A stretch of DNA of 37,117 nucleotides from an uncultured Clostridia bacterium. GTDB lineage: Bacteria; Bacillota; Clostridia; Oscillospirales; Acutalibacteraceae. Shown here piece by piece: positions 11,733-33,168 of the stretch. The position numbers were made by a program, and so were the translations under genes. The notes under the pieces were generated by a model. It did no database searches, was not told where the DNA came from, and saw nothing but the letters and a program-made list of their open reading frames with translations. The stretch is from assembly GCA_946184925.1 (NCBI GenBank), contig CAMHHL010000014.1, positions 1 through 37,117 of the forward strand. The letters are read 5' to 3'. How positions within the stretch are numbered: the stretch's first letter is position 1; every line of letters begins with the position of its first letter.

Positions 11733-11961
11733 ATTCATATGGTCAGTTCTCCGGGTGTTTCCGGAGAGGCCAAAATAACAATCCACGAAAATGTATATTA
11801 TCACAAAAGAAAGAAAAAGTAAAGAGTAAAAATATACAATATAAGTCGAAAAAAACAGGCGTTTGCTTGTTTTCGGGGATAAGAGTGCATTAAATTAATT
11901 CGAAAACAACAGACGATTTTATGCAAGAATATAGAAAATACTGTAATAACTCCGATTATTA

Positions 11962-11990
11962 TTGCAAAAAAAGGCGTTTTAAGGTAGAAT
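11962..11990 (+). promoter_or_regulatory. Putative sigma-A promoter of the capsule locus (TTGCAA-N17-TAGAAT)
   Basis: -35 at 11962-11967, -10 at 11985-11990, upstream of ATG 12026. Confidence 0.65.
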
Positions 11991-12025
11991 GTATACTGCA
12001 TAATTACGTAAAACAGAGGTGCAGT

Positions 12026-12781: not shown

Positions 12782-13491
12782 TGGCAAAGAAAAAGAAAAA
12801 CAGCCCCCAGAGAAGCCAGGCGCTGTTGTTCCAGGTTACAGAATCATATAAAAAGGCGAGAACAAGCCTTGTGTATTCCATAATCAAGAAGGGCTGCCGC
12901 AAGGTCGTTATTACAAGCTCGTTCAAGAGCGAGGGCAAAACCACAACCGCCGTGAATATCGCCATAGCGCTTTCGCAGCAGGTTGACACCAGAGTTCTCA
13001 TCATCGACTGCGACCTTCGCCGTCCTACGGTTCACACCATTCTCGGGGTGAATTCCGACAAGGGACTCGCGAACTATCTCAACAACGAGTGTCCGCTCAG
13101 CGAAGCGGTTACAAAGACAGACAACGAGAGCCTCGACACCATCACCTTCGGCGCAATTCCGCCGAACCCGTCCGAGCTCCTCGCGAGCGAGGGCATGGGC
13201 GAAATGATTGGAGAGCTCGAGAAGGAGTATGACTACATTATCTTCGACACACCCCCGGTCAATATGGTCGTCGACGTTGTTCCGCTCATCGGACTTTCCG
13301 ACGGTGTTGTGCTTGTTGTCAAGCACAACGAGACAACTTACCCCGAGTTCAAAAAGGCGGTTGAAACCCTCAAGCGCAACAACGCCAAAATCCTCGGAGC
13401 CATTATCAACTATATCCCGACAGTAGAAACCTCCAAGGGCGGCTACTACTTTGACAAACGCAGAAAAGACAGGACTTACGGAGTTTATTGA
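12781..13491 (+). CDS. Bacterial tyrosine kinase (BY-kinase, CapB/YwqD-like)
   Basis: Walker A SSFKSEGKTTTAVNIA, Walker A' VLIIDCDLRRPTVH, C-terminal tyrosines GGYYFDKRRKDRTYGVY; TGATG overlap with previous gene. Confidence 0.92.
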   Translation: MAKKKKNSPQRSQALLFQVTESYKKARTSLVYSIIKKGCRKVVITSSFKSEGKTTTAVNIAIALSQQVDTRVLIIDCDLRRPTVHTILGVNSDKGLANYLNNECPLSEAVTKTDNESLDTITFGAIPPNPSELLASEGMGEMIGELEKEYDYIIFDTPPVNMVVDVVPLIGLSDGVVLVVKHNETTYPEFKKAVETLKRNNAKILGAIINYIPTVETSKGGYYFDKRRKDRTYGVY

Positions 13492-13515
13492 TTTCCGTAT
13501 TTTTGGAGAGGAAAT

Positions 13516-14970: not shown

Positions 14971-14988
14971 ATCCGAAAGAGGGAAAAT

Positions 14989-15441
14989 ATGAAGGTTTGT
15001 CTGGTTGGTTCGTCGGGAGGACACCTGACGCATTTGTATATGCTCAAGCCGTTCTGGAAAGATAAAGAACGGTTTTGGGTGACTTTTGACAAAGAGGACG
15101 CGAGGAGCCTGCTTGAAGGCGAGAAGATGTATCCGTGCTATTACCCCACGAACAGAAGCCTCAAGGCGCTGATAATTAATACCCGTCTTGCAATAAAGGT
15201 TCTGCGCAAGGAACGCCCGGACGTGATTATATCATCCGGAGCGGCGGTTGCTGTGCCGTTCTTCTGGCTCGGCAAGCTTTTTTTCAAAGCGAAAACAGTT
15301 TATATCGAGGTTTTTGACCGCATTGATAAATCTACAGTTACCGGAAAAATGGTCTACAAGGTTACCGACAGGTTCATTGTTGAGTGGGAAGAGATGAAAG
15401 ATGTCTATCCCAAGGCTATCAACCTCGGAAGCATTTTTTAA
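14989..15441 (+). CDS. Alg14-like glycosyltransferase subunit (PssD/CpsF type)
   Basis: CLVGSSGGHLTHLYML, DVIISSGAAVAVPFFWLGKLF, YIEVFDRIDKSTVTGKMVYKVTDRFIVEWEEM. Confidence 0.87.
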   Translation: MKVCLVGSSGGHLTHLYMLKPFWKDKERFWVTFDKEDARSLLEGEKMYPCYYPTNRSLKALIINTRLAIKVLRKERPDVIISSGAAVAVPFFWLGKLFFKAKTVYIEVFDRIDKSTVTGKMVYKVTDRFIVEWEEMKDVYPKAINLGSIF

Positions 15442-15456
15442 TTTATCGGAGAAGCT

Positions 15457-15975
15457 ATGATTTTTGTGACAGTTGGTACTCACGAGCAGCAGTTTAACAG
15501 GCTGATTGAGTATGTTGACAATCTAAAAAAAGATAACATCATCACCGAGGACGTAGTTATGCAAACAGGTTTTTCAACCTATGAGCCGCGGTACTGCGAG
15601 TGGAGTAAGCTCTATCCCTACAAGAAGATGATAAAATATGTTGACGAAGCGCGTTTGGTTATCACTCACGGAGGTCCGTCAAGCTTTATTATGCCGCTCC
15701 AGGTCGGCAAAATCCCGATTGTGGTTCCGCGTCAGCTCAAGTTTGAGGAGCATGTCAACGACCATCAGCTCGAGTTTGCAAAGGCTGTCGCCGAGCGTCA
15801 GCATAACATTATAACAATAGAAAATATTGATGACTTGAAGGATACTATTCTGAATTATAACGATATAATCAAAAATATGAACGCAAGCTCCGAAGGGAAC
15901 AACGCTAAGTTCAACGAGCGTTTTTCGGAAATTGTTGACGAGCTTTTCGCTGAGAGCGGGAAGAAAAAACATTGA
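15457..15975 (+). CDS. Alg13-like glycosyltransferase subunit (PssE/CpsG type)
   Basis: MIFVTVGTHEQQFNRLIEYVD, VITHGGPSSFIMPLQVGKIPIVVPRQLKFEEHVNDHQLEF; follows the Alg14-like gene. Confidence 0.88.
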   Translation: MIFVTVGTHEQQFNRLIEYVDNLKKDNIITEDVVMQTGFSTYEPRYCEWSKLYPYKKMIKYVDEARLVITHGGPSSFIMPLQVGKIPIVVPRQLKFEEHVNDHQLEFAKAVAERQHNIITIENIDDLKDTILNYNDIIKNMNASSEGNNAKFNERFSEIVDELFAESGKKKH

Positions 15976-15994
15976 TTTTAATGAGGTTAATTGT

Positions 15995-17116
15995 ATGTTA
16001 AAGGTCGGAATACTATCGATGCAGCGGATAGCTAATTACGGCTCTTTCCTGCAGGCTTACGGTTTAAAATGTCTGATTGAGGAGCTCGGCGCAGAGGCAG
16101 AGTTCGTGGATTATCACCCGGGAGAAACTCTCATCCCCGCCGACGGAGGCACAGGGCTCTCCCGCAAATTCTCAAAACTCACCGATGTCTTGAAGTATAA
16201 AGCACCCTTTGGTGAAAAAATTCGTTTCATAAAGTATAAAAAGAATTACGCTGCAAACTATTACCCGTATCTCGGAATCGGAGAGCAGATGAATTATACT
16301 CCGAAGCTCGATCTTGAGATAATAGGAAGCGACGAGGTTTTTAATTGCGTACAGAATAACACCAATGTCGGATTCGCTCCCGAGCTGTTCGGAAGCGGAA
16401 ATAACGCCGGGAGACTGATTTCCTATGCGGCGTCATTCGGCAACACTACCCTCGAAAAGCTGTCTCAATACGGGGTAGAAGAAAAGGTCGCCGAGTGGCT
16501 CAAGAGGTTTGACGCGATTTCCGTCAGAGATAAAAACAGCGGAGATATTATAAAAAATTTGACCGGGAAAGCTCCCGAATACAACCTTGACCCTGTACTT
16601 GCTTACGATTTTGTCGGTAAATGCAAGGAGATTCCCGCGGAGGTTGACGAATCGGACTATATGATACTCTATGGATATTCGGGAAGATTCACCCCGGAAG
16701 AGTGCAAAGCGGTTCGGGCATATGCCGACAGTAAAGGGTTAAAGGTTTTCTGCATCGGCGGTGTTCAGGGCTGCTGCGATAAATTCATTGATTGCGACCC
16801 GTTTAAGGTAATTGCGTACTTTATGCACGCCGACTGTGTTGTTACGGATACTTTCCACGGTACGATTCTTTCGGTAATTACCCGTAGGGAGTTCGTTTCG
16901 GTAGTCAGAAACGAGGGCTACGGAAACAGCGAAAAACTAACCGACCTTCTCGAAAGGCTCGGTCTTAACGACAGAAAAGTAAAGGATATTTACGCTGCCG
17001 AAAAGCTTTTTGAAAACAAAATCGACTACAGCGCCGCGTATTCCGTAATTGAATCCGAAAGACAACACACGAAAAACTACCTCAGAAAGGAACTTGAAGC
17101 ATGTATACAGAGTTAA
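15995..17116 (+). CDS. Polysaccharide pyruvyl transferase family protein, copy 1
   Basis: MLKVGILSMQRIANYGSFLQAYGLK, IIGSDEVFNC, DCVVTDTFHGTILS. ATG 15995 rather than tracked 15932. Confidence 0.85.
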   Translation: MLKVGILSMQRIANYGSFLQAYGLKCLIEELGAEAEFVDYHPGETLIPADGGTGLSRKFSKLTDVLKYKAPFGEKIRFIKYKKNYAANYYPYLGIGEQMNYTPKLDLEIIGSDEVFNCVQNNTNVGFAPELFGSGNNAGRLISYAASFGNTTLEKLSQYGVEEKVAEWLKRFDAISVRDKNSGDIIKNLTGKAPEYNLDPVLAYDFVGKCKEIPAEVDESDYMILYGYSGRFTPEECKAVRAYADSKGLKVFCIGGVQGCCDKFIDCDPFKVIAYFMHADCVVTDTFHGTILSVITRREFVSVVRNEGYGNSEKLTDLLERLGLNDRKVKDIYAAEKLFENKIDYSAAYSVIESERQHTKNYLRKELEACIQS

Positions 17117-18870
17117 AGACATACAGGATAATCATTGCTCTAATGAAAAAATACGGAATAAAACACTGCGTACTTTCGGCAGGCAGCCGAAACGTTCCTT
17201 TTGTACATTCGATTGAGGAGGATCCGTATTTTCATTGTTACTCGGTTGTTGACGAGAGGAGCGCAGGATACTTCGCACTCGGACTTGCGCAGGAACTGAA
17301 TGAGCCTGTGGTTATCTCTTGTACATCCTCTACCGCAACATGCAACTACTGGCCGCCTGTTGCGGAAGCGTTCTATCAGGGAGTCCCGATTGTTGTATTG
17401 ACCAGTGACAGAGACCCAGCCATGCTCGGCCAATGGGAGGATCAGATGATAGATCAGGTCGGTATGTATGACCGTCATGTGCGCAAGTCGGTTAATCTGC
17501 CTATCATCAACGGAAAAGATGATGAGATATTTTGCCAAAGACTTGTGAATGAAGCGTTTCTCGAGCTGAATCACCACGGAACAGGTCCTGTGCATATCAA
17601 CATTCCGATGAAGTCATATAATAATTCATTCAACATCAAGGAGCTGCCCGAGGTACAGAAGATTGACAGGCTTTGCATTGATGACGCCGAAAGCTTATGG
17701 GAAGCCAAGGCTGAAATCCTGAAAAAGAGCAGACGGATTCTTGTGGCATGCGGACAGCGCAGCTATGTGAGTCCCGAGCTCAAAAAATCAATCGCCGAGT
17801 TTTTTGAGAAGTATAACTCCGCGGTTTCCGTTGAATACATGTCGAACGTAGAGATTGAGGAAGGCCTCAATCTTAATGTATGTATGGACGCTCGTTATAC
17901 TACGTCCAAAAAGGTAAAAGAGCTGTTGCCCGACATTGTTATCTCGTTCGGAGGCAACATTTTCTCGGGAATTAAAGAGCAGTTCAGAAAGTTCGCCGGT
18001 GAATTTGAGCACTGGCTTATCCAGGAAGACGGAAGAGTAGTTGACGCTTTCAAGAGCATTACCACCGTTTTTGAGTGTAAGCCCGAATACTTTTTCGGAT
18101 TTTTTGCAGATAAAGCAGGGGAGATGAAAAACAACAGAGAGTATTTCTCGGCGCTGAAGGCGTATGTTGATTCGGTTGTTTTCCCTGAATTCCCTTATTC
18201 TCATGTCTATGCAGTGAAGGAAGTTGTCGAGCGCATTCCTTCAAACTCGATTCTTCATCTCAGTATTAACGACAGCATAAGAATTGCTAACTTCTTTAAG
18301 CTGAACAGCAGTATAAAAACCTACGCGAATATAGGCACACACGGTATAGACGGCTGTCTCTCGTCCTTTCTGGGACAGGCGGCGGCATCTCCCGAAAAGC
18401 AGAGCTTTCTTGTAATCGGAGATCTCGCTTTCTTCTATGATATGAATGCGATCAGACTGCGCCATATAGGAAAAAACGTTCATATTCTCCTCATAAACAA
18501 TGAAGGCGGCTCGGAGTTTTATTTTAACAGAATGTGGAAAAACGAGGCGAGCGACCTTCACACCACAGCCCGCCATAATACACGCGCGGAGGGCTGGGTA
18601 AAATCCAATAACTTTATTTACCTCAGCGCGAACGATAAGGAATCGCTCGCGCGCGGCGTCAAGGAGTTCATGAGAGATGACCTTGAAAAGCCTGTTTTCT
18701 TCGAGGTTTTTACGGAAATGAAAAAGGATTCCGACACACTGTACGATTTCTTCGATCTCAGTCGTCCCAAGGATATCAAATCGGAAACCATACGCAAGAG
18801 TAAGGAATTCATAAAATCGACAATTGGTCAGGAAAAAGCGCAGAAAATTGCGGGAATGTTCAAAAAATAA
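17101..18870 (+). CDS. MenD-like thiamine-pyrophosphate-dependent enzyme in the capsule locus
   Basis: SAGSRNVPFVHSI, VVDERSAGYFALGLA, SCTSSTATCNYWPPVAEAFYQGVPIVVLTSDRDP, DQMIDQVGMYDRHVR, TPP site GDLAFFYDMNA...LINNEGG. Confidence 0.82.
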   Translation: MYTELKTYRIIIALMKKYGIKHCVLSAGSRNVPFVHSIEEDPYFHCYSVVDERSAGYFALGLAQELNEPVVISCTSSTATCNYWPPVAEAFYQGVPIVVLTSDRDPAMLGQWEDQMIDQVGMYDRHVRKSVNLPIINGKDDEIFCQRLVNEAFLELNHHGTGPVHINIPMKSYNNSFNIKELPEVQKIDRLCIDDAESLWEAKAEILKKSRRILVACGQRSYVSPELKKSIAEFFEKYNSAVSVEYMSNVEIEEGLNLNVCMDARYTTSKKVKELLPDIVISFGGNIFSGIKEQFRKFAGEFEHWLIQEDGRVVDAFKSITTVFECKPEYFFGFFADKAGEMKNNREYFSALKAYVDSVVFPEFPYSHVYAVKEVVERIPSNSILHLSINDSIRIANFFKLNSSIKTYANIGTHGIDGCLSSFLGQAAASPEKQSFLVIGDLAFFYDMNAIRLRHIGKNVHILLINNEGGSEFYFNRMWKNEASDLHTTARHNTRAEGWVKSNNFIYLSANDKESLARGVKEFMRDDLEKPVFFEVFTEMKKDSDTLYDFFDLSRPKDIKSETIRKSKEFIKSTIGQEKAQKIAGMFKK

Positions 18871-18906
18871 TCAGTGTCCGAACAGTGTATGAAACAGGAG
18901 AGAAAA

Positions 18907-19995
18907 ATGCGGGTTTTAGTTATTAACACGGTTCGTTTCAAACTCAACGGCATTTCGGCTGTAATAAAAAACTATTACGACGCTATGGATAAAACCGGTA
19001 TTGAGTGTGAGTTTTTGGCGATACAGGAGCCGTTCCCCGAATTTGAAAAGTGGTTTGCCGACAATGGACTAAAGTGTCACGTCGCGCGAAAAAAGAATCC
19101 GTTAAAATATTTAATAAGTGTGAAGAATATCGTAAAAAGCGGAAACTTTGATGTTGTACACATTCACGGCAACAGCGCTAATCTGGCTTTGGAGCTGCTG
19201 GCGTGTAAGCTCGGAGGAGCAAAGGTACGGATTGCCCATTCACACAACACGAGCAGCACACATCCCTTTATGCACAAACTGCTGTATCCATTGTTTTCGC
19301 TGCTGTACACCAAGGGTCTCGCCTGCGGACGCGATGCCGGCAAATGGATGTTTCATAACAAGCCGTTCGAGGTGCTCAACAACGGAATCCCGCTCGAGAG
19401 CTATAAATATAACCCCGAAGTTCGCGCGTTATGCCGCGAGGAACTCGGAATAAAGGATGAGGTTCTTCTCGGTCACGTGGGCAATTTTGTCACTCAGAAA
19501 AACCACGCTTTTTTGCTTGATACGTTCGCGAAACTCTGTGAGGATCGCGATAATTACAGATTGCTTTTGATAAGCGAGGGTATGCTGTTTGAGGACATGA
19601 AAAAAAGGGCGGAAACGCTCGGAATATCTGACAAGGTTATATTCTTCGGAAAGACCAACAAGGTCAGCCGCTATCTTCAGGCTATGGATATGTTTGTGCT
19701 CCCGTCACTTTTCGAGGGACTGCCTGTAGTTCTTGTTGAGGCTCAGGCGGCAGGACTTCCCTGCCTTGTTTCCGATACGGTTTCACGCGAGGCGGATATG
19801 ACAGATGAAATGAAGTTTATACCGATTGAGCGCGGTTCAGAGATTTGGGTTGAAAACATCGTTTCGGTTGCCGGAGAAACCGCATCTTCCGACAGACAGA
19901 GCCGCTGCGCTGTATATCAGGCGAAAATCGCGGACAAAGGATATGACATCTCGAAGAATGCCGACCGGCTGAGAAAAATCTATTTAGAAAGCTAA
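18907..19995 (+). CDS. GT4-like (GT-B) glycosyltransferase
   Basis: MRVLVINTVRFKLNGISAVIKNYYDAM, LGHVGNFVTQKNHAFLLDTF, FVLPSLFEGLPVVLVEAQAAGLPC; RBS AGGAGAG before ATG 18907. Confidence 0.9.
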   Translation: MRVLVINTVRFKLNGISAVIKNYYDAMDKTGIECEFLAIQEPFPEFEKWFADNGLKCHVARKKNPLKYLISVKNIVKSGNFDVVHIHGNSANLALELLACKLGGAKVRIAHSHNTSSTHPFMHKLLYPLFSLLYTKGLACGRDAGKWMFHNKPFEVLNNGIPLESYKYNPEVRALCREELGIKDEVLLGHVGNFVTQKNHAFLLDTFAKLCEDRDNYRLLLISEGMLFEDMKKRAETLGISDKVIFFGKTNKVSRYLQAMDMFVLPSLFEGLPVVLVEAQAAGLPCLVSDTVSREADMTDEMKFIPIERGSEIWVENIVSVAGETASSDRQSRCAVYQAKIADKGYDISKNADRLRKIYLES

Positions 19996-20010
19996 TCAGG
20001 GGGAGTTATA

Positions 20011-20643
20011 ATGCCCACTTTTGAAGGTCTCAGACTAAAGGTCTTAAAGCAGGTAAGGATACGATTTGCCGAAAAAAGAAAGAAAAAACTGAATAATACC
20101 GATTTTACAATTATCTCGAACAACTGCTGGGGCGGAATGATTTACGAATCATATAACCTGAAAAAAGCAAGCCCTACGGTAGGTTTGTATTTTTCGGCTG
20201 CGGATTATATAAAATTCCTGAAAAGACTTCGCGAGTATCTGTCCGCGCCGCTGAGCTTTGTGAAGTCTGATGTTGAAAATTGTCCGGTCGGAGAATTATC
20301 GTTGGATGACGAGAAAATTCAAATCGTCTTTTTACATTATCACAGCGAGGAAGAGGCGCGCGAAAAATGGCGCAGACGCTGCGAGCGTGTCAATTTTGAC
20401 AATATGCTTGTAAAATTCAACGACCAGAACGGCTGTACCGAGAAGGAGCTCAGGGAGTTTCTTGAATTGCCTTATAAAAACAAGGTGTTTTTCACCTGTA
20501 AAAATTGGGATAACATTAAAGATGAAAAAATAATTGTGAAAATAAAGCAGTTTTCCCGAAAGAATTTTATCCTCGCGTCTTATGAGCCTTTCGGAAGCGG
20601 CAGATATATAGATATAACCGCGTTGCTGAATAACCTGAAATAG
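20011..20643 (+). CDS. DUF1919-like protein in polysaccharide locus
   Basis: FTIISNNCWGGMIYESYNLKKASPTVGLYFSAADYIKFL...; recalled as DUF1919; located between glycosyltransferases. Confidence 0.72.
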   Translation: MPTFEGLRLKVLKQVRIRFAEKRKKKLNNTDFTIISNNCWGGMIYESYNLKKASPTVGLYFSAADYIKFLKRLREYLSAPLSFVKSDVENCPVGELSLDDEKIQIVFLHYHSEEEAREKWRRRCERVNFDNMLVKFNDQNGCTEKELREFLELPYKNKVFFTCKNWDNIKDEKIIVKIKQFSRKNFILASYEPFGSGRYIDITALLNNLK

Positions 20644-20653
20644 CTCAGGGAAA

Positions 20654-21709
20654 TTGCGTGGAAAAATTTTGAAAGTTAAGGATGTGTTTCTGATAGTCAG
20701 TATAGTTGTTCCTGTTTATAATGTTGAAAAATATCTTCGGCAGTGCATTGACAGTCTGATTGCTCAGACATACAAGGATATGGAAATAATACTCGTTGAC
20801 GACGGTTCAACCGACGGCAGCGGTAAAATCTGTGACGAATACGCGGAGAAAAACGAATTTATCCGTGCGATACATAAGGAGAACGCAGGGCTCGGCTTGG
20901 CTCGCAACTCCGGAATCGAAAAAGCGAAGGGCGATTACGTCAGCTTTGTGGATTCGGACGATTACCTCAAGCCCGACGCATTGGAAATGCTCGTCAAGGC
21001 TATGGATGAAGCCGGAGCGGACACGTGCATAGGCGGCTACACCCGCGTCAGAAATAACGGCGAGGTTATTTTTGAAAGCGCGCCGGAGAAGAAATCCTAC
21101 GCCGCAGCGGAGTTTTTTCCGCGGCTGATGGGCAGTCTTCCGGACAAAAAGGATTCCTTCCGACCTTCGGTATGGAATGCGCTCTACAGCATGGAAATAA
21201 TCCGCAATAACAACATTCGTTTTCCGTCTGAGCGTGAGTACATTGCCGAGGATATGGTTTTTGACATTGATTATTACAGATATTCAAATACAATCGCGAT
21301 TGTAAATTCTCCGGGCTATTGCTACAGGGTAACCCCGGGCTCGCTCACAATGAAATATAACCCCGAAAGATTTGAGAAGGTTGTGTTCCTTTTCAAAGAG
21401 GTTTTCGAGCGCCTGACTGACAGAGGCTGGGGCGAAGAATGTGTTCTCAGGGCAAACCGCCAGTTCTTCCTCTATCTCAGAGCTTGTATCCGCCAGCAGG
21501 AAACGACAATCAGCGGCAAGACAAAAGCCGAGGCTCTGGCGTCAATACGCGGTATTTGCGAGGATAATTTTACCCGGCGCTGTGTGGAGAACTATCCCGC
21601 TGAGAAAATGGGCTTTGCTCAGAGAACCTTCCTCGGTCTCGTTAAGAGTAAAAAGGCGAGGCTGCTGTACCTGCTCGTCTGCTGCGACAAAAAGGGCGGC
21701 AAGGCTTAG
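20654..21709 (+). CDS. GT2 family glycosyltransferase (start codon uncertain)
   Basis: IVSIVVPVYNVEKYLRQCIDSLIAQTYKDMEIILVDDGSTDGSGKICDEYA, SFVDSDDYLKPDALE; no ATG near the domain start, TTG/GTG alternatives. Confidence 0.88.
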   Translation: MRGKILKVKDVFLIVSIVVPVYNVEKYLRQCIDSLIAQTYKDMEIILVDDGSTDGSGKICDEYAEKNEFIRAIHKENAGLGLARNSGIEKAKGDYVSFVDSDDYLKPDALEMLVKAMDEAGADTCIGGYTRVRNNGEVIFESAPEKKSYAAAEFFPRLMGSLPDKKDSFRPSVWNALYSMEIIRNNNIRFPSEREYIAEDMVFDIDYYRYSNTIAIVNSPGYCYRVTPGSLTMKYNPERFEKVVFLFKEVFERLTDRGWGEECVLRANRQFFLYLRACIRQQETTISGKTKAEALASIRGICEDNFTRRCVENYPAEKMGFAQRTFLGLVKSKKARLLYLLVCCDKKGGKA

Positions 21710-21724
21710 GCCGGGAGATAAAAT

Positions 21725-22453
21725 ATGGGAATTAAAGAAAAAATCAAGAATAGATTTTTAGGCTACAAAGCAACAAGCGAAAGCTATTTGAAAAAGCTGA
21801 GAGATTCCGGAGCGATTATAGGTGAAAATGTGGTTTTATTCAGACCTTATAACACCAGCATTGATACGCAGAACCCTCACCTCATTACTATCGGAAATCA
21901 TGTTATGATAACGGGTCCGGCAACTATCCTTACGCATGACTATAGTTGGTCTGTGCTGAAAAACAAGTACGGCTATGTCGCCGGAAACCAGAAGCCTGTA
22001 AAAATAGGCAACAATGTATTCATAGGCTGGGGAGCAACCATTCTTGCCGGAACAACCATAGGCGATAACACCGTTATCGGCGCGAACAGCGTCGTGCACG
22101 GCAAGCTCGAAGGCGACAGTGTTTACGCCGGCAATCCGGCAAAACGCATAATGGGAATAGACGAGTATTACAAAAAGCGAGTCGAAAAGCAGCTTGACGA
22201 GGCTTATGAGGTCGTCCGCGAGTATAAAAAGAGAAAAGGCAGCTATCCGCCGCAGGAGTTGATGGACGAGTATTTCTTCCTCTTTACAGGCGGAGATATC
22301 GACAATCTTCCTGACGCATTTGTCACCAAACTCAGACTTGCGGGAACCTATGACGAGAGCGTCGAGCTCTTGAAGTCCAACAAGCCAAGGTTTAAAGACT
22401 TCGGCGAATTTTTGGACTATTGCAGGGAAAGAGAGAGCCAAGAGGGAGAATAG
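21725..22453 (+). CDS. Left-handed beta-helix (hexapeptide) acyltransferase with C-terminal extension
   Basis: PVKIGNNVFIGWGATILAGTTIGDNTVIGANSVVHGKLEGDSVYAGNPAKRIMGIDEYYKKR; charged C-terminal extension. Confidence 0.85.
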   Translation: MGIKEKIKNRFLGYKATSESYLKKLRDSGAIIGENVVLFRPYNTSIDTQNPHLITIGNHVMITGPATILTHDYSWSVLKNKYGYVAGNQKPVKIGNNVFIGWGATILAGTTIGDNTVIGANSVVHGKLEGDSVYAGNPAKRIMGIDEYYKKRVEKQLDEAYEVVREYKKRKGSYPPQELMDEYFFLFTGGDIDNLPDAFVTKLRLAGTYDESVELLKSNKPRFKDFGEFLDYCRERESQEGE

Positions 22454-22525
22454 GCGGAAACGCCATGATAAAGGCGGACAGCATAATTCCCGTTGCGCCC
22501 TTTGATTTTTTGTGTAAGTGAGAAT

Positions 22526-22699
22526 ATGGCAAGTAAAGTTGTCCCCGTATATAACGTCGAAAAAATATCTCAGACACGGTGTTGACAGCCTGCTTGCTCA
22601 TACATATAAAGATGTAGAAGAAGTCTCGTGAACGACTGTTCCACCGACAAAAGCGACGCAATCTCTGACAAATACGCGAGCAAGGATATTATCGGTTGA
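22526..22699 (+). pseudogene. Degenerate N-terminal fragment of a GT2 glycosyltransferase (two frameshifts, truncated)
   Basis: Three-frame reading: MASKVVPVYNVEK / fs / YLRHGVDSLLAHTYKDVEE / fs / VNDCSTDKSDAISDKYASKD; parallels VVPVYNVEKYLRQCIDSLIAQTYKDMEIILVDDGSTDGSGKICDEYAEK at 20654-21709. Confidence 0.82.
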
Positions 22700-22717
22700 G
22701 CATGAACGGAGAGTTTT

Positions 22718-23896
22718 ATGAAAATAAAAATCATACAAATTGATATTGCGCTGTTGTGCCTGACGTTCTATGAGATAACGATGCTGCCGCACGCTATATT
22801 CTTGGGCTTTAAGTATGCGGTGCTCACATATTTACTTCTGAAATACGCCGCCACAGCTAACAGAATACCATTCGCAATCATCCCCGCGGCACTGTACGGT
22901 GCGTCTAATGTTTTCTCGACAGTATACAACCATATGGATCATAACGTGATTATCGCGTCAATTTTTTACATGATTCAGATAGTGGTTATATTTTTGGTTA
23001 CAGAGAACTTTCTGTCAAAATTTACTCTTGAGCTGTACGCGACGACAATTTTCGCTGTGATTGCCGTTCTGCTTGCCATCACGGATGCTCTGATGCTTGT
23101 GATGCCGTACAACTTCAGCGATCCCAACCAATTCTATTTTATAGGAAACAAGTTTGTTGTTTCGTATCTGCATTGTTTTGCGGCGATGCTGCTTTTTATC
23201 ATCAGCTACAAATCAAAAAAGACGTGGGAAATCAGTCGCGGAATACTCAGAATCAACGGGTTGTCTTTGAGAGCGGGCGCCTTTGCGTTCTCCGTTTTTT
23301 CTGTTTTTATTTGTCGGAAGGTAACCTGCTCAACCGGAATGCTGGTTTGCGCGCTTCTGATTGTTATTATGCTTATTCCCGCCGTGGCGAGACCGTTCTT
23401 CTCAAACGGAAAGATGATGATTATCGTCACAGCGGTTCTCAACTTTTTCCTACTCGGTTCATATTCGTTCCTCAACACAAGCTTCGTCCACGAATTTATT
23501 TATGGGGTGCTTGATAAATCCGTAACATGGAACGGAAGACTTATCATCTGGAACGATGTTTTCCGGCTTATCGGCAAAAAGCTCGTCTTTGGCTACGGCT
23601 ATTACAGCTCAATAGTTTTTCGTGAAATCGGCTTCGGAAACCCCCAGAACGCCGTGCTGAAATTCCTGATAGATACGGGAATCGTGGGACTGGTTCTTTA
23701 CGGGGTTGTTGTCTGGGTATGCTTCCGCGCATTCAGTTCGGAAGCACTCAAGAGAATCTATCCGACAGTCGCGTTTATGTACGTGATGATTTTTGCGGCA
23801 TTGGTAGAGATTAATCTCACACATATGATATTGTTTATGGCGATGGCAATCGCTTTCAGCGGCGCCAGACATGTTGACAGGAGGCTTAAAGCATGA
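22718..23896 (+). CDS. O-antigen/capsule polymerase-like multi-pass membrane protein (Wzy candidate)
   Basis: Many TM helices; SVTWNGRLIIWNDVFRLIGKKLVFGYGYYSS; position in a Wzx-containing locus. Confidence 0.72.
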   Translation: MKIKIIQIDIALLCLTFYEITMLPHAIFLGFKYAVLTYLLLKYAATANRIPFAIIPAALYGASNVFSTVYNHMDHNVIIASIFYMIQIVVIFLVTENFLSKFTLELYATTIFAVIAVLLAITDALMLVMPYNFSDPNQFYFIGNKFVVSYLHCFAAMLLFIISYKSKKTWEISRGILRINGLSLRAGAFAFSVFSVFICRKVTCSTGMLVCALLIVIMLIPAVARPFFSNGKMMIIVTAVLNFFLLGSYSFLNTSFVHEFIYGVLDKSVTWNGRLIIWNDVFRLIGKKLVFGYGYYSSIVFREIGFGNPQNAVLKFLIDTGIVGLVLYGVVVWVCFRAFSSEALKRIYPTVAFMYVMIFAALVEINLTHMILFMAMAIAFSGARHVDRRLKA

Positions 23897-24987
23897 AAAT
23901 AGGAATACTTTCTATGCAGCGCATATATAATTACGGCTCTTTTCTTCAGTCGTACGCATTGAAAACCATCCTTGAGCGCAGAGGACACGAAGTTACCTTT
24001 GTTGACATCGAAAAGAGAAAGAATTATACATATCCGAGAAAGAGCAAGCTTCAGGTCAAGCTCGGAAAACTGAAATATGTAGACAGATATTTCTTCAGAC
24101 GAATGGAGGACAGCAAGAAGAACACTCAGCTTGACGTGCTGTTCAGAACTGTTCAGCGCGAAGGTCTCGGGCTCAGCGACGAGCATATGAGCGCCAGCGG
24201 GCTTGACGCTGTTGTTATAGGCAGCGATGAAATTTTCAACTGCTCTCCCGTAAGTATGTGGGGAATTACCGGCCAGCGCTTCGGTGATATCGAAGGAGTC
24301 GGCAAGACACTGAGCTATGCGGCATCCTGCGGATATACGTGTGTGGATGATATGGATGACGACGACAGAGCTCTCGTGAGCGGCGCGCTTAAAAAGCTCG
24401 ACGGTATTTCCGTCCGCGACGATAATACCGCGGATTTCGTCCGGAAACTCACCGGCAAGGAGCCTGAGATGAACTTAGACCCGGTGCTTGTCTATGATTT
24501 TGAGAAAGAAATCGCTCAGGGTGAACGAGAGGGAGTTCCCGATTATCCTTATATGGTTGTGTATGCGTATCATAACCGAATTGAGTCCAAGTCCGAGATA
24601 AAAGCAATCAAGGATTACGCGAAGAAAAAATCTCTGAAAACCATTGCAATCGGCGGCTCGCTCCCGTGGTGCGATGAATTTGCGGTCATCTCTCCATTTC
24701 AGGTTCTCGCGTACTTTAAGCACGCCGAATGCATTGTGACCGACACCTTCCACGGTTCGGTTATGGCGTCGAAGCTCAATCGTCCGCTGGCGGTGCTCGT
24801 GCGCGACAGCAACACAAACAAGCTTGACGACTTGCTCAGAAGGCTCATCATAGAAAACCATAAGGTTGTTGATACAGCAGGACTTGAGGGAGTACTGTCA
24901 CAATCGGACGACTACTCCGCCTGTAACCAAAAGATTGAGCAGGAGTGTGCGCACACTGTGAAATACTTTGATGAAATCGGCTTATAA
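23893..24987 (+). CDS. Polysaccharide pyruvyl transferase family protein, copy 2
   Basis: MKIGILSMQRIYNYGSFLQSYALK, VIGSDEIFNC, CIVTDTFHGSVMAS; ATGA overlap with previous gene; paralogue of 15995-17116. Confidence 0.85.
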   Translation: MKIGILSMQRIYNYGSFLQSYALKTILERRGHEVTFVDIEKRKNYTYPRKSKLQVKLGKLKYVDRYFFRRMEDSKKNTQLDVLFRTVQREGLGLSDEHMSASGLDAVVIGSDEIFNCSPVSMWGITGQRFGDIEGVGKTLSYAASCGYTCVDDMDDDDRALVSGALKKLDGISVRDDNTADFVRKLTGKEPEMNLDPVLVYDFEKEIAQGEREGVPDYPYMVVYAYHNRIESKSEIKAIKDYAKKKSLKTIAIGGSLPWCDEFAVISPFQVLAYFKHAECIVTDTFHGSVMASKLNRPLAVLVRDSNTNKLDDLLRRLIIENHKVVDTAGLEGVLSQSDDYSACNQKIEQECAHTVKYFDEIGL

Positions 24988-24996
24988 GAGGAACTT

Positions 24997-26406
24997 ATGA
25001 AGAAGATTAAGGTTTCGGAATCACTTAAAAATGTCACGAAAATTTCAACAGGCACGGTTCTCGGTCAAATTATTTCAATCCTTACGCTCCCGTTCATCAC
25101 CCGTCTCTACGGAGCGGAAATAATCGGAATCTGGACGGTAATCACCGCCTTTTCAAATATAGTTCAGCAGATTGCCGATTTGGGACTTGCCAACTCGGTT
25201 ATGATGTGTAATGAGGACGAGATCAGACAACGCTACAGCATAGTCACTAAGATTTCGTTTTTTTTGAGCACTGTGTCGGGTATCGCGATAGTTCTGTATT
25301 ACATTATCATCCGCGAGGAGCTTAGCTATGCGCTGACTGTAGGCTGCTTCACAATTATGTACGCTTTCGGGCTCAGACAGATACAGACCTGCAACACTTT
25401 GCTCACCCGCGACAAGCAGTACAATGTGCTTATGACGAACGCCACCATACGTTTTTCGGCTATTGCGATTATCTCTATAGCGCTTGGCTTTTTGGGAAAA
25501 TATCTGCACGTCCCGTTCTGTATTGAGTTCGGATATTTTATAGGAAATGTCATTGGACAGTGGTTGACTATCATGCATCTCAAGCGCCACCTTCCCAAGA
25601 TAATCAAGCGCACACCGAGGAGCTTGTATAAGGAAACAATCAAAGGTAATATAGATTATGTAAGGTATCAGATGCCGGCGTCTATCACCGTAATCCTCAG
25701 AACAGAGCTTCCGAACCTGCTCATCAGCTCCCTGTTCGGCAACAAGATGCTGGGTTATTTTTCAATCTCCCAGAAGCTGCTCACCATACCGGTCACCTTT
25801 CTCGGACAGTCGCTCGGAACGGTGTTCTATCAGAAGGTAGCGGAGCTCGCGCGTCAGGGGAAGGATATCAGCCGTTTTGTCGACAGAAATATCAAGCGCG
25901 GAATGCTTATCGCGCTTGTGCCTATGGTTCTGCTTGCGGCTTACGGCGACGCCGCAATCAATGTTTTTTTCGGCACCGAGTACGGAATCGGCGGAGTAAT
26001 CTGCCGTATTATCGTGTTCCGAACACTGTTTAACTTTATTTCAACCTCAACAAGAGGACTTGATATAGTTCTCAACAAGCAGCAGTACGTTCTGTATTCC
26101 TGCCTTACTCAGACAGTTCTTGCCGTTGGCAGCGTTTTGTGCGGATTTTTCGTATTCAATAATATATATGTTACCGCCGCTCTGCTTGCAGGCACTTTTA
26201 TCATCGTCCAGATGGCTTACTTTGCGGCTTTGTACCGTGTCATGAAGCTTAATCCCTGGAAATACATCAGAAATATGCTTTTGATAATTGCGGCAATGTT
26301 CCTGATTTCAATTGCACTGAGATTCGGAACGATATTCATCCTCAAAGCCTTCCCAAACGGATTCTTCAACTATATTCTGAGCATGTTTGTACAGACCGCA
26401 ATATAG
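24997..26406 (+). CDS. Polysaccharide flippase (Wzx, MATE-like fold family)
   Basis: About 12-14 TM helices; N-terminal KISTGTVLGQIISILTLPFITRLYGAEIIGIWTVITAFSNIV. Confidence 0.85.
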   Translation: MKKIKVSESLKNVTKISTGTVLGQIISILTLPFITRLYGAEIIGIWTVITAFSNIVQQIADLGLANSVMMCNEDEIRQRYSIVTKISFFLSTVSGIAIVLYYIIIREELSYALTVGCFTIMYAFGLRQIQTCNTLLTRDKQYNVLMTNATIRFSAIAIISIALGFLGKYLHVPFCIEFGYFIGNVIGQWLTIMHLKRHLPKIIKRTPRSLYKETIKGNIDYVRYQMPASITVILRTELPNLLISSLFGNKMLGYFSISQKLLTIPVTFLGQSLGTVFYQKVAELARQGKDISRFVDRNIKRGMLIALVPMVLLAAYGDAAINVFFGTEYGIGGVICRIIVFRTLFNFISTSTRGLDIVLNKQQYVLYSCLTQTVLAVGSVLCGFFVFNNIYVTAALLAGTFIIVQMAYFAALYRVMKLNPWKYIRNMLLIIAAMFLISIALRFGTIFILKAFPNGFFNYILSMFVQTAI

Positions 26407-26415
26407 GAGGTTTAA

Positions 26416-27519
26416 ATGCTTACCGTATGCGAAAAGAATATGTGCGCCGGATGTATGGCGTGCGTGGACATCTGTCCCAAAAACGCGATTGAAATCGCGG
26501 ACACAATCGGCGAGTACAACGCTGTTATCGACGAGAAACTCTGCATAGAGTGCGACGCCTGCCGCAAGGTTTGTCAGCAGAATAATCCTCCGTCTTTTCG
26601 CAAGCCTGTCTACTGGAAAGAGGGCTGGGCAAAAAGCCCCGAAATCAGAGCCGCTTCATCCTCGGGCGGTTTTGCCGCTGCGCTTGAAATGGCGTTTGTG
26701 AGGGACGGCGGAGTTGTGTGCAGCTGTGAGTTTTCCGGGGGGAAATTCGGCTTTTCATTTGCCGGAGCTGAGGCTGATGTGAAAAAATTCACCGGCTCAA
26801 AATACATCAAGAGTAACCCCGAGGGAGTGTACAAGGAGATAAAAAAGCTCCTCAAAAGCGGAAAAAAGGTTCTTTTCGCGGGACTCCCGTGTCAGGCAGC
26901 TGCGGTAAGGAATTTTACCGGTGATGACGAAAAGCTCTGTACCGTGGATTTGATTTGTCATGGCTCTCCGTCACCGAAGCTTCTCGACCGTTTTCTTGAG
27001 GACTACAAAACAACCCCCGACAAGCTCGAGGGAGTAAGGTTTAGGGACAATAATAAATTCCGGTTCACTGCCGCCAATCAGAAAATCGAAGTTCCGACTG
27101 TTGTTGACAACTATACAAAGGTATTCCTCAACGGTACGACATACACGCTAAACTGCTACAGCTGTCAATACGCCCGAATCGAGAGAGCGTCGGACATTAC
27201 TCTCGGCGATTCGTGGGGAACAGAACTGAGCGCGGAGGAACAGAAAAAGGGTATCTCGCTGGCACTCTGTCAGACTGAGAAAGGCGTGGAGCTCCTTGAG
27301 AAGGCGGAGGTTATCCTAAAGGACGTTGACCTCGACAGGTCGATTGAACATAATCACCAGCTTGAGCACCCGTCGCGACCGACTCCGGAGCGTGAAAAGT
27401 TCTTCTCCGAAATCAAGAGCGGAGCGAGCTTCAAAAAGGCTATCGGGAAATGCTATCCCAATCAGAATACGAAAAACGCGGTCAAGACCGTATTGTACAA
27501 ATTGAATATTAAAAGATAA
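26416..27519 (+). CDS. Coenzyme F420 hydrogenase/dehydrogenase beta subunit-like protein with N-terminal 2x[4Fe-4S] ferredoxin domain
   Basis: CAGCMACVDICPKNAI and CIECDACRKVCQQ; FrhB-like SSSGGFAAAL, VLFAGLPCQAAAVRNF, DLICHGSPSPKL, ITLGDSWG. Confidence 0.87.
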   Translation: MLTVCEKNMCAGCMACVDICPKNAIEIADTIGEYNAVIDEKLCIECDACRKVCQQNNPPSFRKPVYWKEGWAKSPEIRAASSSGGFAAALEMAFVRDGGVVCSCEFSGGKFGFSFAGAEADVKKFTGSKYIKSNPEGVYKEIKKLLKSGKKVLFAGLPCQAAAVRNFTGDDEKLCTVDLICHGSPSPKLLDRFLEDYKTTPDKLEGVRFRDNNKFRFTAANQKIEVPTVVDNYTKVFLNGTTYTLNCYSCQYARIERASDITLGDSWGTELSAEEQKKGISLALCQTEKGVELLEKAEVILKDVDLDRSIEHNHQLEHPSRPTPEREKFFSEIKSGASFKKAIGKCYPNQNTKNAVKTVLYKLNIKR

Positions 27520-28982: not shown

Positions 28983-29011
28983 TTGTAAAGTTTTGATTTT
29001 TAATTTATAAT
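28983..29011 (+). promoter_or_regulatory. Putative sigma-A promoter (TTGTAA-N17-TATAAT)
   Basis: -35 at 28983-28988, 17-bp spacer, -10 at 29006-29011; upstream of the NifU-like gene. Confidence 0.75.
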
Positions 29012-29075
29012 GAATGTGTGTAAGCAGCCGGACGAGCTCCGGCTCGACAACAAAAATGAAAGGAGCCAGTACAAT

Positions 29076-29768
29076 ATGATTTATTCATCTGAAGTAGAAA
29101 ACATGTGTACGGTAGCAAAGGGTCCCAAGCACGGTCCCGCGCCTATTCCCGAAGAGGGCAAATGGGTGAAATCTTATGACATCAAAGACATCAGCGGCCT
29201 GTCCCACGGCATTGGTTGGTGTGCGCCTCAGCAGGGTGCCTGCAAGCTCACACTCAACGTTAAGGACGGCATCGTTGAGGAAGCTCTCGTAGAGACAATC
29301 GGCTGCTCGGGCATGACTCACTCCGCGGCTATGGCTGCCGAGATTCTCCCGAACAAAACTCTCCTCGAGTGCCTCAACACCGACCTCGTTTGCGACGCAA
29401 TCAACGTTGCTATGAAGAACATCTTCCTCCAGCTCGTTTACGGACGCAGCCAGACAGCCTTCTCCGAGGGCGGTCTCCCCATCGGCGCAGGTCTTGAGGA
29501 CCTCGGCAAGGGTATCAGAAGCCAGGTCGGCACAATGTATTCTACAAACAAAAAGGGCGTCCGCTATATGGAGATGGCTGAGGGCTATGTCCTCAAGACA
29601 GCTCTCGACGAGAACGATGAGGTTTGCGGCTATCAGTTCCTCAAGCTCGGCAAAATGCTCGAGGATATCCGTCACGGCGTGTCGCCCGACGAGGCATACA
29701 AGAACAACATCGGTCAGTACGGACGCTTTGACGGCGCTGCCAAGTACATCGACCCGCGTGAAGAATAA
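29076..29768 (+). CDS. NifU-like iron-sulfur cluster assembly scaffold-type protein paired with GGGtGRT protein
   Basis: NifU-like segments GIGWCAPQQGACKLTLNVKDGIVEEALVETIGCSGMTHSAAMAAEILPNKTLLEC; conserved-type Cys; RBS AAAGGAG before ATG 29076 (tracked start 29010 is upstream of the RBS). Confidence 0.75.
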   Translation: MIYSSEVENMCTVAKGPKHGPAPIPEEGKWVKSYDIKDISGLSHGIGWCAPQQGACKLTLNVKDGIVEEALVETIGCSGMTHSAAMAAEILPNKTLLECLNTDLVCDAINVAMKNIFLQLVYGRSQTAFSEGGLPIGAGLEDLGKGIRSQVGTMYSTNKKGVRYMEMAEGYVLKTALDENDEVCGYQFLKLGKMLEDIRHGVSPDEAYKNNIGQYGRFDGAAKYIDPREE

Positions 29769-29786
29769 GGCAAGGAGGACTCAATT

Positions 29787-30788
29787 ATGGCAGTAACATT
29801 TGAAAGTATGGAAAGAAGAATGCCTAAAATCGAGAAGTGCCTTGCCGAATACGGCATCAAGGACCTCGAAGAGGCAAGACAGATTTGCGTTGACAGGGGC
29901 TTCAATCCCTATGACATCGTAAAGGGCGTTCAGCCCATCGCGTTCGAGAACGCCGGCTGGGCTTATACACTCGGCTGCGCTGTTGCAATCAAGAAGGGCG
30001 TCAAGACTGCCGCCGACGCTGCCGAGGCTATCGGCATCGGTCTCGAGGCTTTCTGTATCCCCGGTTCTGTTGCAGAGCAGAGAAACGTAGGTCAGGGACA
30101 CGGCAACCTCGGCGCAATGCTCCTCAGAGATGAGACAAAGTGCTTTGCGTTCCTCGCAGGTCACGAGAGCTTCGCGGCTGCCGAGGGCGCTATCGGTATC
30201 GCCCGTAACGCCAACAAGGCAAGAAAAGAACCTCTCCGCGTAATCCTCAACGGTCTCGGCAAGGACGCAGCTTACATCATCTCCAGAATCAACGGCTTCA
30301 CCTATGTTCAGACTGAGTTTGACTATTTCACAGGCGAGCTTAAGGTTGTCAAGGAGACAGCTTACTCCGACGGCGAGAGAGCTGCGGTTCGCTGCTACGG
30401 CGCTGACGACGTCCGTGAGGGTGTTGCCATCATGCAGAAGGAGAACGTCGGCGTTTCCATCACCGGTAACTCCACCAACCCCACCCGTTTCCAGCACCTC
30501 GTTGCAGGTACCTACAAGAAATGGGCTATCGAGAACGGCGTTAAGTACTTCTCCGTTGCTTCCGGCGGCGGCACAGGCCGTACTCTCCACCCCGACAACA
30601 TGGGCGCTGGTCCCGCTTCCTATGGTCTGACAGACTCCATGGGACGTATGCACGGCGACGCTCAGTTCGCAGGCTCGTCCTCAGTTCCGGCTCACGTTGA
30701 GATGATGGGACTCATGGGCATGGGCAACAACCCGATGGTTGGCGCAACAGTTGCGTGCGCTGTTGCGGTTTATGAGGCTATGAAGTAA
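29787..30788 (+). CDS. GGGtGRT family protein (function unknown)
   Basis: Signature VASGGGTGRTLHPDNMGAGPASYGLTDSMGRMHGDAQFAG; 18 bp after the NifU-like gene with its own RBS (AAGGAGG). Confidence 0.85.
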   Translation: MAVTFESMERRMPKIEKCLAEYGIKDLEEARQICVDRGFNPYDIVKGVQPIAFENAGWAYTLGCAVAIKKGVKTAADAAEAIGIGLEAFCIPGSVAEQRNVGQGHGNLGAMLLRDETKCFAFLAGHESFAAAEGAIGIARNANKARKEPLRVILNGLGKDAAYIISRINGFTYVQTEFDYFTGELKVVKETAYSDGERAAVRCYGADDVREGVAIMQKENVGVSITGNSTNPTRFQHLVAGTYKKWAIENGVKYFSVASGGGTGRTLHPDNMGAGPASYGLTDSMGRMHGDAQFAGSSSVPAHVEMMGLMGMGNNPMVGATVACAVAVYEAMK

Positions 30789-31132: not shown

Positions 31133-32458
31133 ATGAAGATGTTCTTTACAATTCTAATCTGTAAGCTGCTCCGCTTTGTCGGCAAGCTTATAGGCAAGGG
31201 CAGCAGCATGCCGGGACAGATTGCGCTCAGACTGTGCCCGGATATTCTCAGCCGGGTCAAGCTTCCCGAATACATCATCGCCGTAACAGGCAGCAACGGC
31301 AAGACCTCAACGGTCGAGATGATTGCCCACATTCTCCAAAAAAGCGGCAGGAACGTCGCATGGAACCGCGAGGGCTCGAACCAGATCGAGGGCGTAACCA
31401 CCCTGGTGCTCTCGAGCGCGACGCTCGGCGGCAAGGTGAACGCCGACATTCTGCTGATTGAGAGCGACGAGAGATTTGCGAAGTACACCTTCAAATACAT
31501 CACACCCACCCACTATGTAATCACCAATCTCTACCGCGACCAGCTCACGCGAAACGGTCATCCCGAGTGGGTTTATGACGCGATAAAGGACAGCATTCAC
31601 CCCGAAACCACCCTCATTCTCAACGCCGACGATCCGCTCGTCGCGAGCTTCGGACAGGGCAGGAAGAACGTGATTTGGTTCGGAGCGGACAAGCTCGATT
31701 CCGACACCGAGCTGCTCGAGAGCGTCTACAACGACGGCGCCTTCTGTCCGGTCTGCAAGGGCAGAATGGTCTATTCAACCCATCACTATAACCACATCGG
31801 TCACTACAGCTGCATGTCCTGCGGCTATTCCCGCCCGGATACGGACTATACGATCACCTCGGTTGACCTCGGCTCCGGCGTTATGACGATTGACGGAAAG
31901 CACGAGATCACCCTCGCGCTCAAGTCGCTTTACAATATCTACAACATTCTCGCCGCCTATACGGTCGCCTCGCTCGTCGGAGTTGACGGCGAAAAGATTG
32001 CCGCCGACATGAGCAACTATGTCATGAAGAACGGCAGAGTAGTCACCTTTGACCTCGGCGGCAGGAAGGGAACTCTCCTCACCTCGAAGCACGAGAACAG
32101 CATTTCCTATGACCAGAGCATTCGCGTCGCGTGCGCCGACGGCAGGGGAGTTGACGTGCTCATCATCGTTGACGCGGTGAGCCGCAAGTATTTTACAAGC
32201 GATGTTTCGTGGCTTTGGGATATTGACTTCGAGATGCTCGGCGACGAGAACATTCACGAGATTATTCTCGCCGGCAAGTATTGTAACGACCTCGCTGTGC
32301 GCTTTTCCTACACCACTATCCCCGATGACAAAATCAGGATTTTTGAGGATATCGACAAGGCGGCGGACTACCTCAGCTCAGGCAGGAAAGAGTATATCTA
32401 TACCATCACCTGCTTCTCTGACAAGGGCAAGTTCCTCGCGAACGTAAAGGGGGAATAA
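31133..32458 (+). CDS. murT: MurT-like Mur ligase (lipid II isoglutaminyl synthase, ligase subunit)
   Basis: ATP site AVTGSNGKTSTVEMI; Cys4 zinc ribbon CPVCKGRM...CMSCGYSRP; DVSWLWDIDFE; followed by a GatD-like gene. The tracked start at 31019 lies upstream of the promoter. Confidence 0.87.
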   Translation: MKMFFTILICKLLRFVGKLIGKGSSMPGQIALRLCPDILSRVKLPEYIIAVTGSNGKTSTVEMIAHILQKSGRNVAWNREGSNQIEGVTTLVLSSATLGGKVNADILLIESDERFAKYTFKYITPTHYVITNLYRDQLTRNGHPEWVYDAIKDSIHPETTLILNADDPLVASFGQGRKNVIWFGADKLDSDTELLESVYNDGAFCPVCKGRMVYSTHHYNHIGHYSCMSCGYSRPDTDYTITSVDLGSGVMTIDGKHEITLALKSLYNIYNILAAYTVASLVGVDGEKIAADMSNYVMKNGRVVTFDLGGRKGTLLTSKHENSISYDQSIRVACADGRGVDVLIIVDAVSRKYFTSDVSWLWDIDFEMLGDENIHEIILAGKYCNDLAVRFSYTTIPDDKIRIFEDIDKAADYLSSGRKEYIYTITCFSDKGKFLANVKGE

Positions 32459-32460
32459 AA

Positions 32461-33168
32461 ATGCAGGTGCTTCACCTTTACAACGACATAATGAACCTCT
32501 ACGGCGAGTACGCAAACCTCACCGCGCTCGGACGCTTTCTCGCTCATAACGGAGAGAGAATGGCGCTCGAGTACGCCACCTTCGGCGACAACGTGAGACT
32601 CTATGATTATGACTTCATCTATATGGGCTCGGGCACCGAGCGTAACCAGAAGCTTGTCCTCGCGGACTTCGCGAGATATTCCGACGAGCTCGCCGCATAT
32701 ATCGAGAGCGGCAAGCCGGCGCTCTTCACCGGCAACGCGTTTGAAATTCTCGGCAAATCAATCACCGACGCTGACGGCAAAAAATACGACGGCTTGGGCA
32801 TCTTCGACTTTGAGACTGTCGAGCAGAGGAAAACGCGCATGACTGCCGACGCGATTTTTGAGGCTGACTTCCTCGACAAGCCCCTCGTTGGCTTTGTCAA
32901 CAAGTGCTCAACAATCAAGGGCGTCGAAACCCCTGCCTTCAAGGTCAGAATGGGGCTCGGCAACGACGACGGAAAATTTGAGGGCTTGCGTAAAAACAAC
33001 TTCATCGGCACCCACCTCACCGGCCCCATCATGGTCAAGAACCCTCATTTCCTCAAATATGAGGCTTCGCTCGAATCAGGCAGGAAAGACCTCTCCGACG
33101 ACTTCCTCGTGTATGAGAAGAAGGGCTTTGAGATTACTCTCAGCGAGCTAAAGGCGAGAAACAACTGA
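32461..33168 (+). CDS. GatD-like class I glutamine amidotransferase homologue, apparently lacking catalytic Cys and His
   Basis: HLYNDIMNLYGEYANLTALGRFL, DFIYMGSGTERNQ, YDGLGIFDFETVEQRKTRMTAD; nucleophile region reads LFTGNAFEILG and the His region reads GTHLTGPIMVKN. Confidence 0.85.
   Translation: MQVLHLYNDIMNLYGEYANLTALGRFLAHNGERMALEYATFGDNVRLYDYDFIYMGSGTERNQKLVLADFARYSDELAAYIESGKPALFTGNAFEILGKSITDADGKKYDGLGIFDFETVEQRKTRMTADAIFEADFLDKPLVGFVNKCSTIKGVETPAFKVRMGLGNDDGKFEGLRKNNFIGTHLTGPIMVKNPHFLKYEASLESGRKDLSDDFLVYEKKGFEITLSELKARNN

Follow-up and report, generated by a model that had tools for sequence, protein, structure and literature searches.

A murT-gatD-like pair in an uncultured Clostridia bacterium

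The window analyzed here, a stretch of 37,117 nucleotides from an uncultured Clostridia bacterium of the family Acutalibacteraceae (contig CAMHHL010000014.1 of assembly GCA_946184925.1), carries two adjacent genes that resemble murT and gatD, followed by a purL/purQ fusion (Table 1). gatD starts 2 bp after murT, for which a longer ORF with a TTG start at 31019 is an alternative. An earlier note on this DNA, made from the letters alone, had given gatD the same coordinates, an intact frame and the same spacing, all of which proved correct. A frameshift or assembly error in gatD was ruled out by the intact frame, the strong third-position GC bias (0.74) and the occurrence of the same motifs in relatives.

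The bacterium's own genome (2.32 Mb, 99% complete) contains a single MurT_C match, i.e., the MurT of the window, and its only other GATase_3 match is a HisH-like protein with an intact GICVG, encoded upstream of a HisF-like protein. In B. subtilis, the same MurT_C search gave no match. Thus, the search for a second, canonical pair that the earlier note had proposed returned no further MurT or GatD among the MurT_C and GATase_3 profile matches, and the window pair stands alone. The genome encodes separate MurC, MurD and MurE. Neither a constant neighbor beyond murT-gatD nor a conserved peptidoglycan gene adjoining the pair was found in the resolved neighborhoods, and with no constant neighbor the genomic neighborhood was dropped as a functional clue. 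Upstream in the window lies an exopolysaccharide-type cluster (11921-27516, + strand), which includes two polysaccharide pyruvyl transferases, a TPP-enzyme-like protein, a hexapeptide transferase and an F420 hydrogenase beta-subunit-like protein with 4Fe-4S domains. An uncharacterized nucleotidyltransferase family protein (PF14907; 27552-28670, - strand) separates this cluster from a stretch (29010-30785, + strand) with the gene of a GGGtGRT-family protein (PF14057, 642 bits), which is preceded by a 252-aa protein without a Pfam match that looks like an Fe-S scaffold type.

Table 1. The murT-gatD-like pair and its sequence features in the window (types A and B are the non-canonical sequence types described in the text).
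Feature	Position	Strand	Remarks
murT-like gene, type A	31133..32458	+	441 aa, ATG start; PF08353 and PF08245; NCBIfam MurT E 2e-67
P-loop region TGSNGKT, MurT residues 52-58	31286..31306	+	kept in all types; K57 corresponds to the essential S. pneumoniae Lys59
GatD-facing loop YRDQLTRNGH, MurT residues 134-143	31532..31561	+	canonical RDQLDRYGE; D136 and R140 kept; T139, N141 and H143 type-specific
Zn-ribbon CPVC...CMSC, MurT residues 205-230	31745..31822	+	four Cys invariant in types A and B
KHENSISYDQS, MurT residues 319-329	32087..32119	+	replaces KNPxGFNQ, with a 2-aa HE insert; H320 in 100% and E321 in 98% of 54 non-redundant type A MurTs
DAVSRKYFTSDVSWLWD loop, MurT residues 347-363	32171..32221	+	replaces NDNAADGRDTSWIYD; S350, R351 and Y353 100% in type A
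C-terminal TCFSDKGKF, MurT residues 426-434	32408..32434	+	T426, C427, F428, D430 and K433 100%, S429 98% in type A
gatD-like gene, type A, predicted inactive glutaminase subunit	32461..33168	+	235 aa; PF07685 E 3e-17
Nucleophile elbow TGNAFE, GatD residues 90-95	32728..32745	+	Gly91 instead of catalytic Cys94; Gly (rarely Ser) in types A and B
THLTGP, GatD residues 184-189	33010..33027	+	Thr187 instead of catalytic His189; His in no type A/B member

The GatD-like protein lacks both catalytic residues

The pair was compared with the solved MurT/GatD lipid II isoglutaminyl synthases of S. aureus (6gs2/6h5e), S. pneumoniae (6fqb) and S. pyogenes (9sq9/9sqj). In an alignment to the solved GatD chains, S. 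aureus C94 (LTICGGYQFLGK) falls on G91 of the window GatD (LFTGNAFEILGK), H189 (GTYLHGP) falls on T187 (GTHLTGP), and ENHGG falls on VNKCS, bearing out the earlier note on the missing Cys, the Thr in place of His and the replaced segment. S. aureus D19 is E16 in this protein, the Gln-capturing Arg128 is kept as R126 and, as in canonical GatD, the plug Tyr is present. The AlphaFold (AF2) model (pLDDT 96.4) presents a complete GatD fold with GatD structures as its best PDB matches (TM 0.84-0.87), and G91 is positioned exactly at the predicted strand-helix nucleophile elbow (strand 87-90, helix 91-97). The protein scores well above the cut-off of the GATase_3 family (PF07685, 63.5 vs. 27 bits), and falls short of that of the NCBIfam equivalog NF045636 (101.9 vs. 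400 bits).

Both catalytic residues are likewise missing from every member of types A and B, the former being the type of the window pair and the latter its sister type, and no invariant Cys or His was found in type A/B GatD as a replacement. The invariant residues of type A GatD are N19, E60, R126 and N147, and Y14 is kept as well. It is highly improbable that the Cys and His were simply misaligned and that GatD works as a glutaminase via another pair, e.g., Cys149 and His185: these two residues are common in type A, where R126 and Y14 are also kept, but position 149 can equally be Gly, Ala, Ser or Met and position 185 Tyr, Gly, Glu or Gln, while G91 occupies the predicted elbow itself. This dyad was rejected, as neither residue is invariant. 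With neither alignment nor model placing a Cys and a His in the active site, the suggestion of the earlier note that the window GatD is a pseudo-glutaminase is well supported, and it is further backed by the relaxed constraint on GatD relative to MurT (see below).

Types A and B form a conserved clade

We scanned 150 genomes of the family, 394 of the order, 399 of the phylum and 391 of the class, and read MurT-GatD pairs from 203 genomes. Since the class and phylum matches were read in part, best- and lowest-scoring first, all counts outside the order are biased and do not represent unbiased frequencies; with this bias, 90 of the 203 genomes held only canonical Cys/His pairs, 60 only type A, 28 only type B, two held types A and B together, and one held a canonical pair alongside another divergent form, the remainder having other divergent or unclassified forms. 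In the sampled members of types A and B, Cys was replaced by Gly (rarely Ser) and His by Thr, Ile, Leu or another residue, the two always being lost together and never one alone. The MurT partners differed in parallel: canonical MurTs read RDQLDRYGE, KNPxGFNQ and NDNxxDGxDxSW; type A MurTs read RDQLTRNGH, SKHENSxSYDQS and VDAxSRKYFTxETSW; and type B MurTs read RDSxxRNAH and AKxxNPxACSR, followed by an acidic loop.

In a MurT tree, the 44 rows of type A fell on a single branch and so did the 28 rows of type B, both with 99% support, and together with their kin (81 rows in all) they were grouped at 99%, separately from the canonical rows. A GatD tree built without the catalytic columns also set A and B apart from the rest, albeit weakly (67%). 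Within the class, type A is spread over at least ten families, and intact, adjacent murT-gatD genes with a non-canonical pattern were found in >90 genomes from at least ten families. Conservation in about 90 other genomes puts the window pattern far beyond chance. Judged by sequence, then, the window pair is a member of a large conserved clade and not a lone decayed gene; what is new relative to the earlier single-protein view is this clade, rather than one odd GatD. Two smaller sets of divergent pairs were also observed. One, from family f46 (L207-L210, L212), is a separate, highly divergent lineage with TGSSLSxFG in GatD and KEQLSRxGE and SISxFEQ in MurT, in which GatD has lost the Cys throughout, four of the five retaining the His; G756, one of these genomes, carries a canonical pair in addition. 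The other (L113, L115, L203) lies near type B, with KDQVQRNG and KQENPETLQ in MurT and a GatD that reads FTNxLGP and is without Cys or His.

The two partners also differ in constraint. At a MurT identity of 0.50-0.55, mean GatD identity was 0.39 in type A, 0.50 in type B and 0.59 in canonical pairs, a trend rather than a tested rate because genome pairs are not independent. GatD is thus the more conserved partner in canonical pairs and the less conserved one in type A, suggesting, as a trend, that constraint on type A GatD is relaxed relative to MurT.

MurT retains its core residues and carries a rebuilt C-terminal domain

The window MurT has MurT_C (PF08353, 78.5 bits, cut-off 25), a Mur ligase middle domain and the Zn ribbon, and scores 228.3 bits against the NCBIfam equivalog NF045635 (cut-off 800); despite these sub-cut-off scores, NCBIfam MurT and GatD are the best family matches for the pair. 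Its AF2 model (pLDDT 92, pTM 0.91), least certain internally at the loop ~350-360 (pLDDT about 65), has MurT structures as its top PDB folds, followed by the pseudomurein ligase pMurC (6vr7) and MurF, placing it in the Mur ligase superfamily. Like canonical systems, the pair consists of two adjacent genes with both folds, and retains the P-loop, the Mg and acceptor residues, the Zn ribbon and the GatD-facing gate.

The earlier note had described this MurT as divergent, with two altered motifs. Both alterations were confirmed, KHENSISYDQS standing for KNPxGFNQ and VDAVSRKYFTSDVSW for NDNxADGxDxSW; the description needs qualifying, however, since none of the residues with an established requirement has been lost and the departures from canonical MurT are conserved in their own right. 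When scored on 54 non-redundant sequences, type A MurT keeps K57, N83, D112, E113, R135, D136, R140, D201, D/E357, W360, D363 and the four Zn Cys. Among these are counterparts, present in all 54, of the residues on which S. pneumoniae activity depends (K59, N85, D112/E113, D136 and R140), and counterparts of the S. pneumoniae gate residues R135, E201 (as Asp), D355 (as Asp/Glu) and D361. The triad Asp of S. aureus MurT (D349) is retained as D357 in the window and is Asp or Glu across the clade. The interface Trp region, where the S. pneumoniae W360A substitution abolishes GatD binding, is conserved, and gatD is adjacent. A neutralized negative gate was considered and found to be wrong, as the E201, D355 and D361 equivalents are kept and only loop residues 139, 141 and 143 differ; in S. 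pneumoniae, D139A and E143A have minor effects.

Unlike canonical MurT, type A has TRNGH for DR[YF]GE, KHENSxSYDQS for KNPxGFNQ, and DAxSRKYFT for NDNxADG, such that SRxY replaces DNAAD, a region of canonical MurT proposed to contact the stem peptide. It has also gained the C-terminal TCFSDKxK, absent from canonical MurT. Residues that are new and about 95-100% conserved in type A are N141, H143, H320, E321, S323, S350, R351, Y353, T355 and T426-C-F-S-D-x-x-K433; nearly all of them, including all three conserved stretches, are in the C-terminal domain. In addition, S82 and R114, which lie beside the acceptor-binding N83 and D112/E113, are both Ala in canonical MurT.

In Mur ligases, the C-terminal domain binds the incoming amino acid. 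Type A MurT shares the middle and C-terminal domains of MurC, MurD, MurE and pMurC, and differs from them in having a Zn ribbon and a GatD-like partner and no UDP-binding N-terminal Mur domain. In profile alignments, the SRKY loop falls in the region of the MurC FQPHTFSRT and MurD GGYDK loops, its invariant Arg lying in the region of MurC HxxxR and MurD DK, and TCFSDK falls opposite the SPACASFDMF segment of MurD (a C-terminal substrate segment). A correspondence of the SRKY loop to the MurE amino-acid motif DNPR was rejected, the profile alignment putting the loop opposite GCGGDRD instead.

Four genomes from unrelated lineages (L202, L204-L206) serve as a natural control. Their GatD has lost the Cys, and in three of them the His too, yet their MurT is still canonical-like (DQLDRYG, KNxAGFN, ADGxDxSW). 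Hence, loss of the glutaminase alone does not force the MurT changes, and the departure of types A and B from this simple situation points to a change in the reaction catalyzed by MurT. These four pairs are themselves candidates for plain ammonia-dependent amidation.

Possible functions of the type A pair

Of the three functional options raised in the earlier note (free ammonia, a structural role or another substrate), which a single sequence could not tell apart, the clade comparison leads us to favor a changed MurT substrate, albeit tentatively: the type A pair may be an ATP-dependent ligase in which a dead-glutaminase GatD is the scaffold and MurT takes an amine directly. For complex formation, acceptor and nucleophile alike, we infer that GatD would be a non-catalytic scaffold in a MurT-GatD-type heterodimer, and that MurT would still activate a carboxylate using ATP, the likeliest acceptor being the D-Glu alpha-carboxyl of a lipid-linked stem peptide. 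The group joined to it would be an amine bound directly by MurT, instead of ammonia made by GatD from glutamine. This amine would most likely be a small amino acid or another amine recognized by the rebuilt C-terminal domain; an amino acid may be used where canonical MurT takes ammonia. Two observations favor a directly bound amine: the residues newly conserved in type A map to the domain with which Mur ligases bind the amino acid, and the profile alignments put SRKY in the region of the basic MurC/MurD loops and TCFSDK opposite the MurD substrate segment, although the mismatch to the MurE DNPR motif renders this alignment support only moderate. S. aureus MurT was stated to add L-Lys to UDP-MurNAc-dipeptide in vitro, in place of MurE (PMC3266927, data not shown there). 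Together with the S. aureus C94G results described below, this indicates that both ammonia and an amino acid are within reach of the MurT fold, and that GatD can be required as a scaffold even when its glutaminase is dead. Counting against direct amine binding, the gate (R135, D201, D/E357, D363) and GatD Tyr14 and R126 are kept, as would be expected of a pair that still passed ammonia or bound a ligand.

The kept gate makes free ammonia a serious rival, albeit a somewhat unlikely one: NH3/NH4+ would replace glutamine, the product would be lipid II D-isoglutamine as in canonical systems, and the dead GatD would only hold MurT active. Near relatives of the window bacterium come from ammonia-rich sites, namely the dairy-cattle colon and a RUG assembly, which we take to be from the rumen. 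Moreover, an engineered S. aureus GatD carrying the same Cys-to-Gly change (C94G) is glutaminase-dead and leaves MurT active, the complex using NH3 for lipid II amidation with GatD being required (PMC3266927, PMC6085368). This was seen only at pH 8.5, however, and the engineered pair keeps His189 and the canonical MurT motifs, whereas type A changed all of these together, clade-wide. Free ammonia also fails to account for a MurT C-terminal domain that was rebuilt in a concerted and conserved manner, a change absent from the four natural-control genomes, and for types A and B sharing a genome; their coexistence in two genomes indicates that they probably do different jobs. Canonical and non-canonical pairs, for their part, never co-occurred in the order (34 of 127 genomes with a pair canonical, 93 non-canonical, none both), as if they had the same role. 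In the family scan of 150 genomes, the corresponding counts were 12, 40 and 0 (Fisher P 0.02, kinship ignored). This lack of overlap fits alternative treatments of one acceptor, though kinship could explain part of it.

Such exclusion suggests a shared target and so speaks against a different acceptor, whether another cell-wall or cofactor peptide carboxylate or another stem-peptide position, receiving ammonia or an amine. That reading is compatible with the replaced DNAAD region, with S82 and R114 and with the lack of a conserved peptidoglycan gene beside the pair, but the acceptor-carboxylate and Mg residues N83, D112 and E113 are invariant and the best family matches are still MurT and GatD, making it quite unlikely. 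A purely structural or decayed pair, i.e., a non-catalytic or regulatory complex or an amidation operon in neutral decay, is likewise unlikely, and still less probable than a new acceptor. It would suit the loss of the GatD catalytic residues and the faster evolution of GatD than in canonical pairs; against it, type A MurT is conserved at 63% on average with its ATP, Mg and acceptor residues all invariant, and the genes are intact and adjacent across the genomes and families counted above.

Extending the direct-amine ligase reading to the whole clade is more tentative again: types A and B could be hitherto undescribed ligases that modify peptidoglycan in gut-type Clostridia by attaching an amino acid or another amine, instead of ammonia, to the D-Glu alpha-carboxyl of lipid-linked precursors, with GatD as scaffold. 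If true, they could explain peptidoglycans substituted at this carboxyl; we know of no identified ligase gene for such substituents, and found no description of either such genes or an inactive natural GatD in the open-access literature. Published surveys (PMC3266927, PMC6085368) and genome annotation deduce D-isoglutamine in the wall from the occurrence of murT-gatD, a step that is unsafe in this clostridial order, given that 93 of the 127 sampled carriers have the dead-glutaminase form. The widespread "D-glutamate amidation" annotation thus probably hides a different reaction. Amidation at position 2 affects cross-linking, beta-lactam susceptibility and NOD1/NOD2 recognition, so another substituent there would have consequences for how the host senses gut bacteria. 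The type A/B clade also offers natural pairs in which to ask about roles of GatD beyond glutamine hydrolysis.
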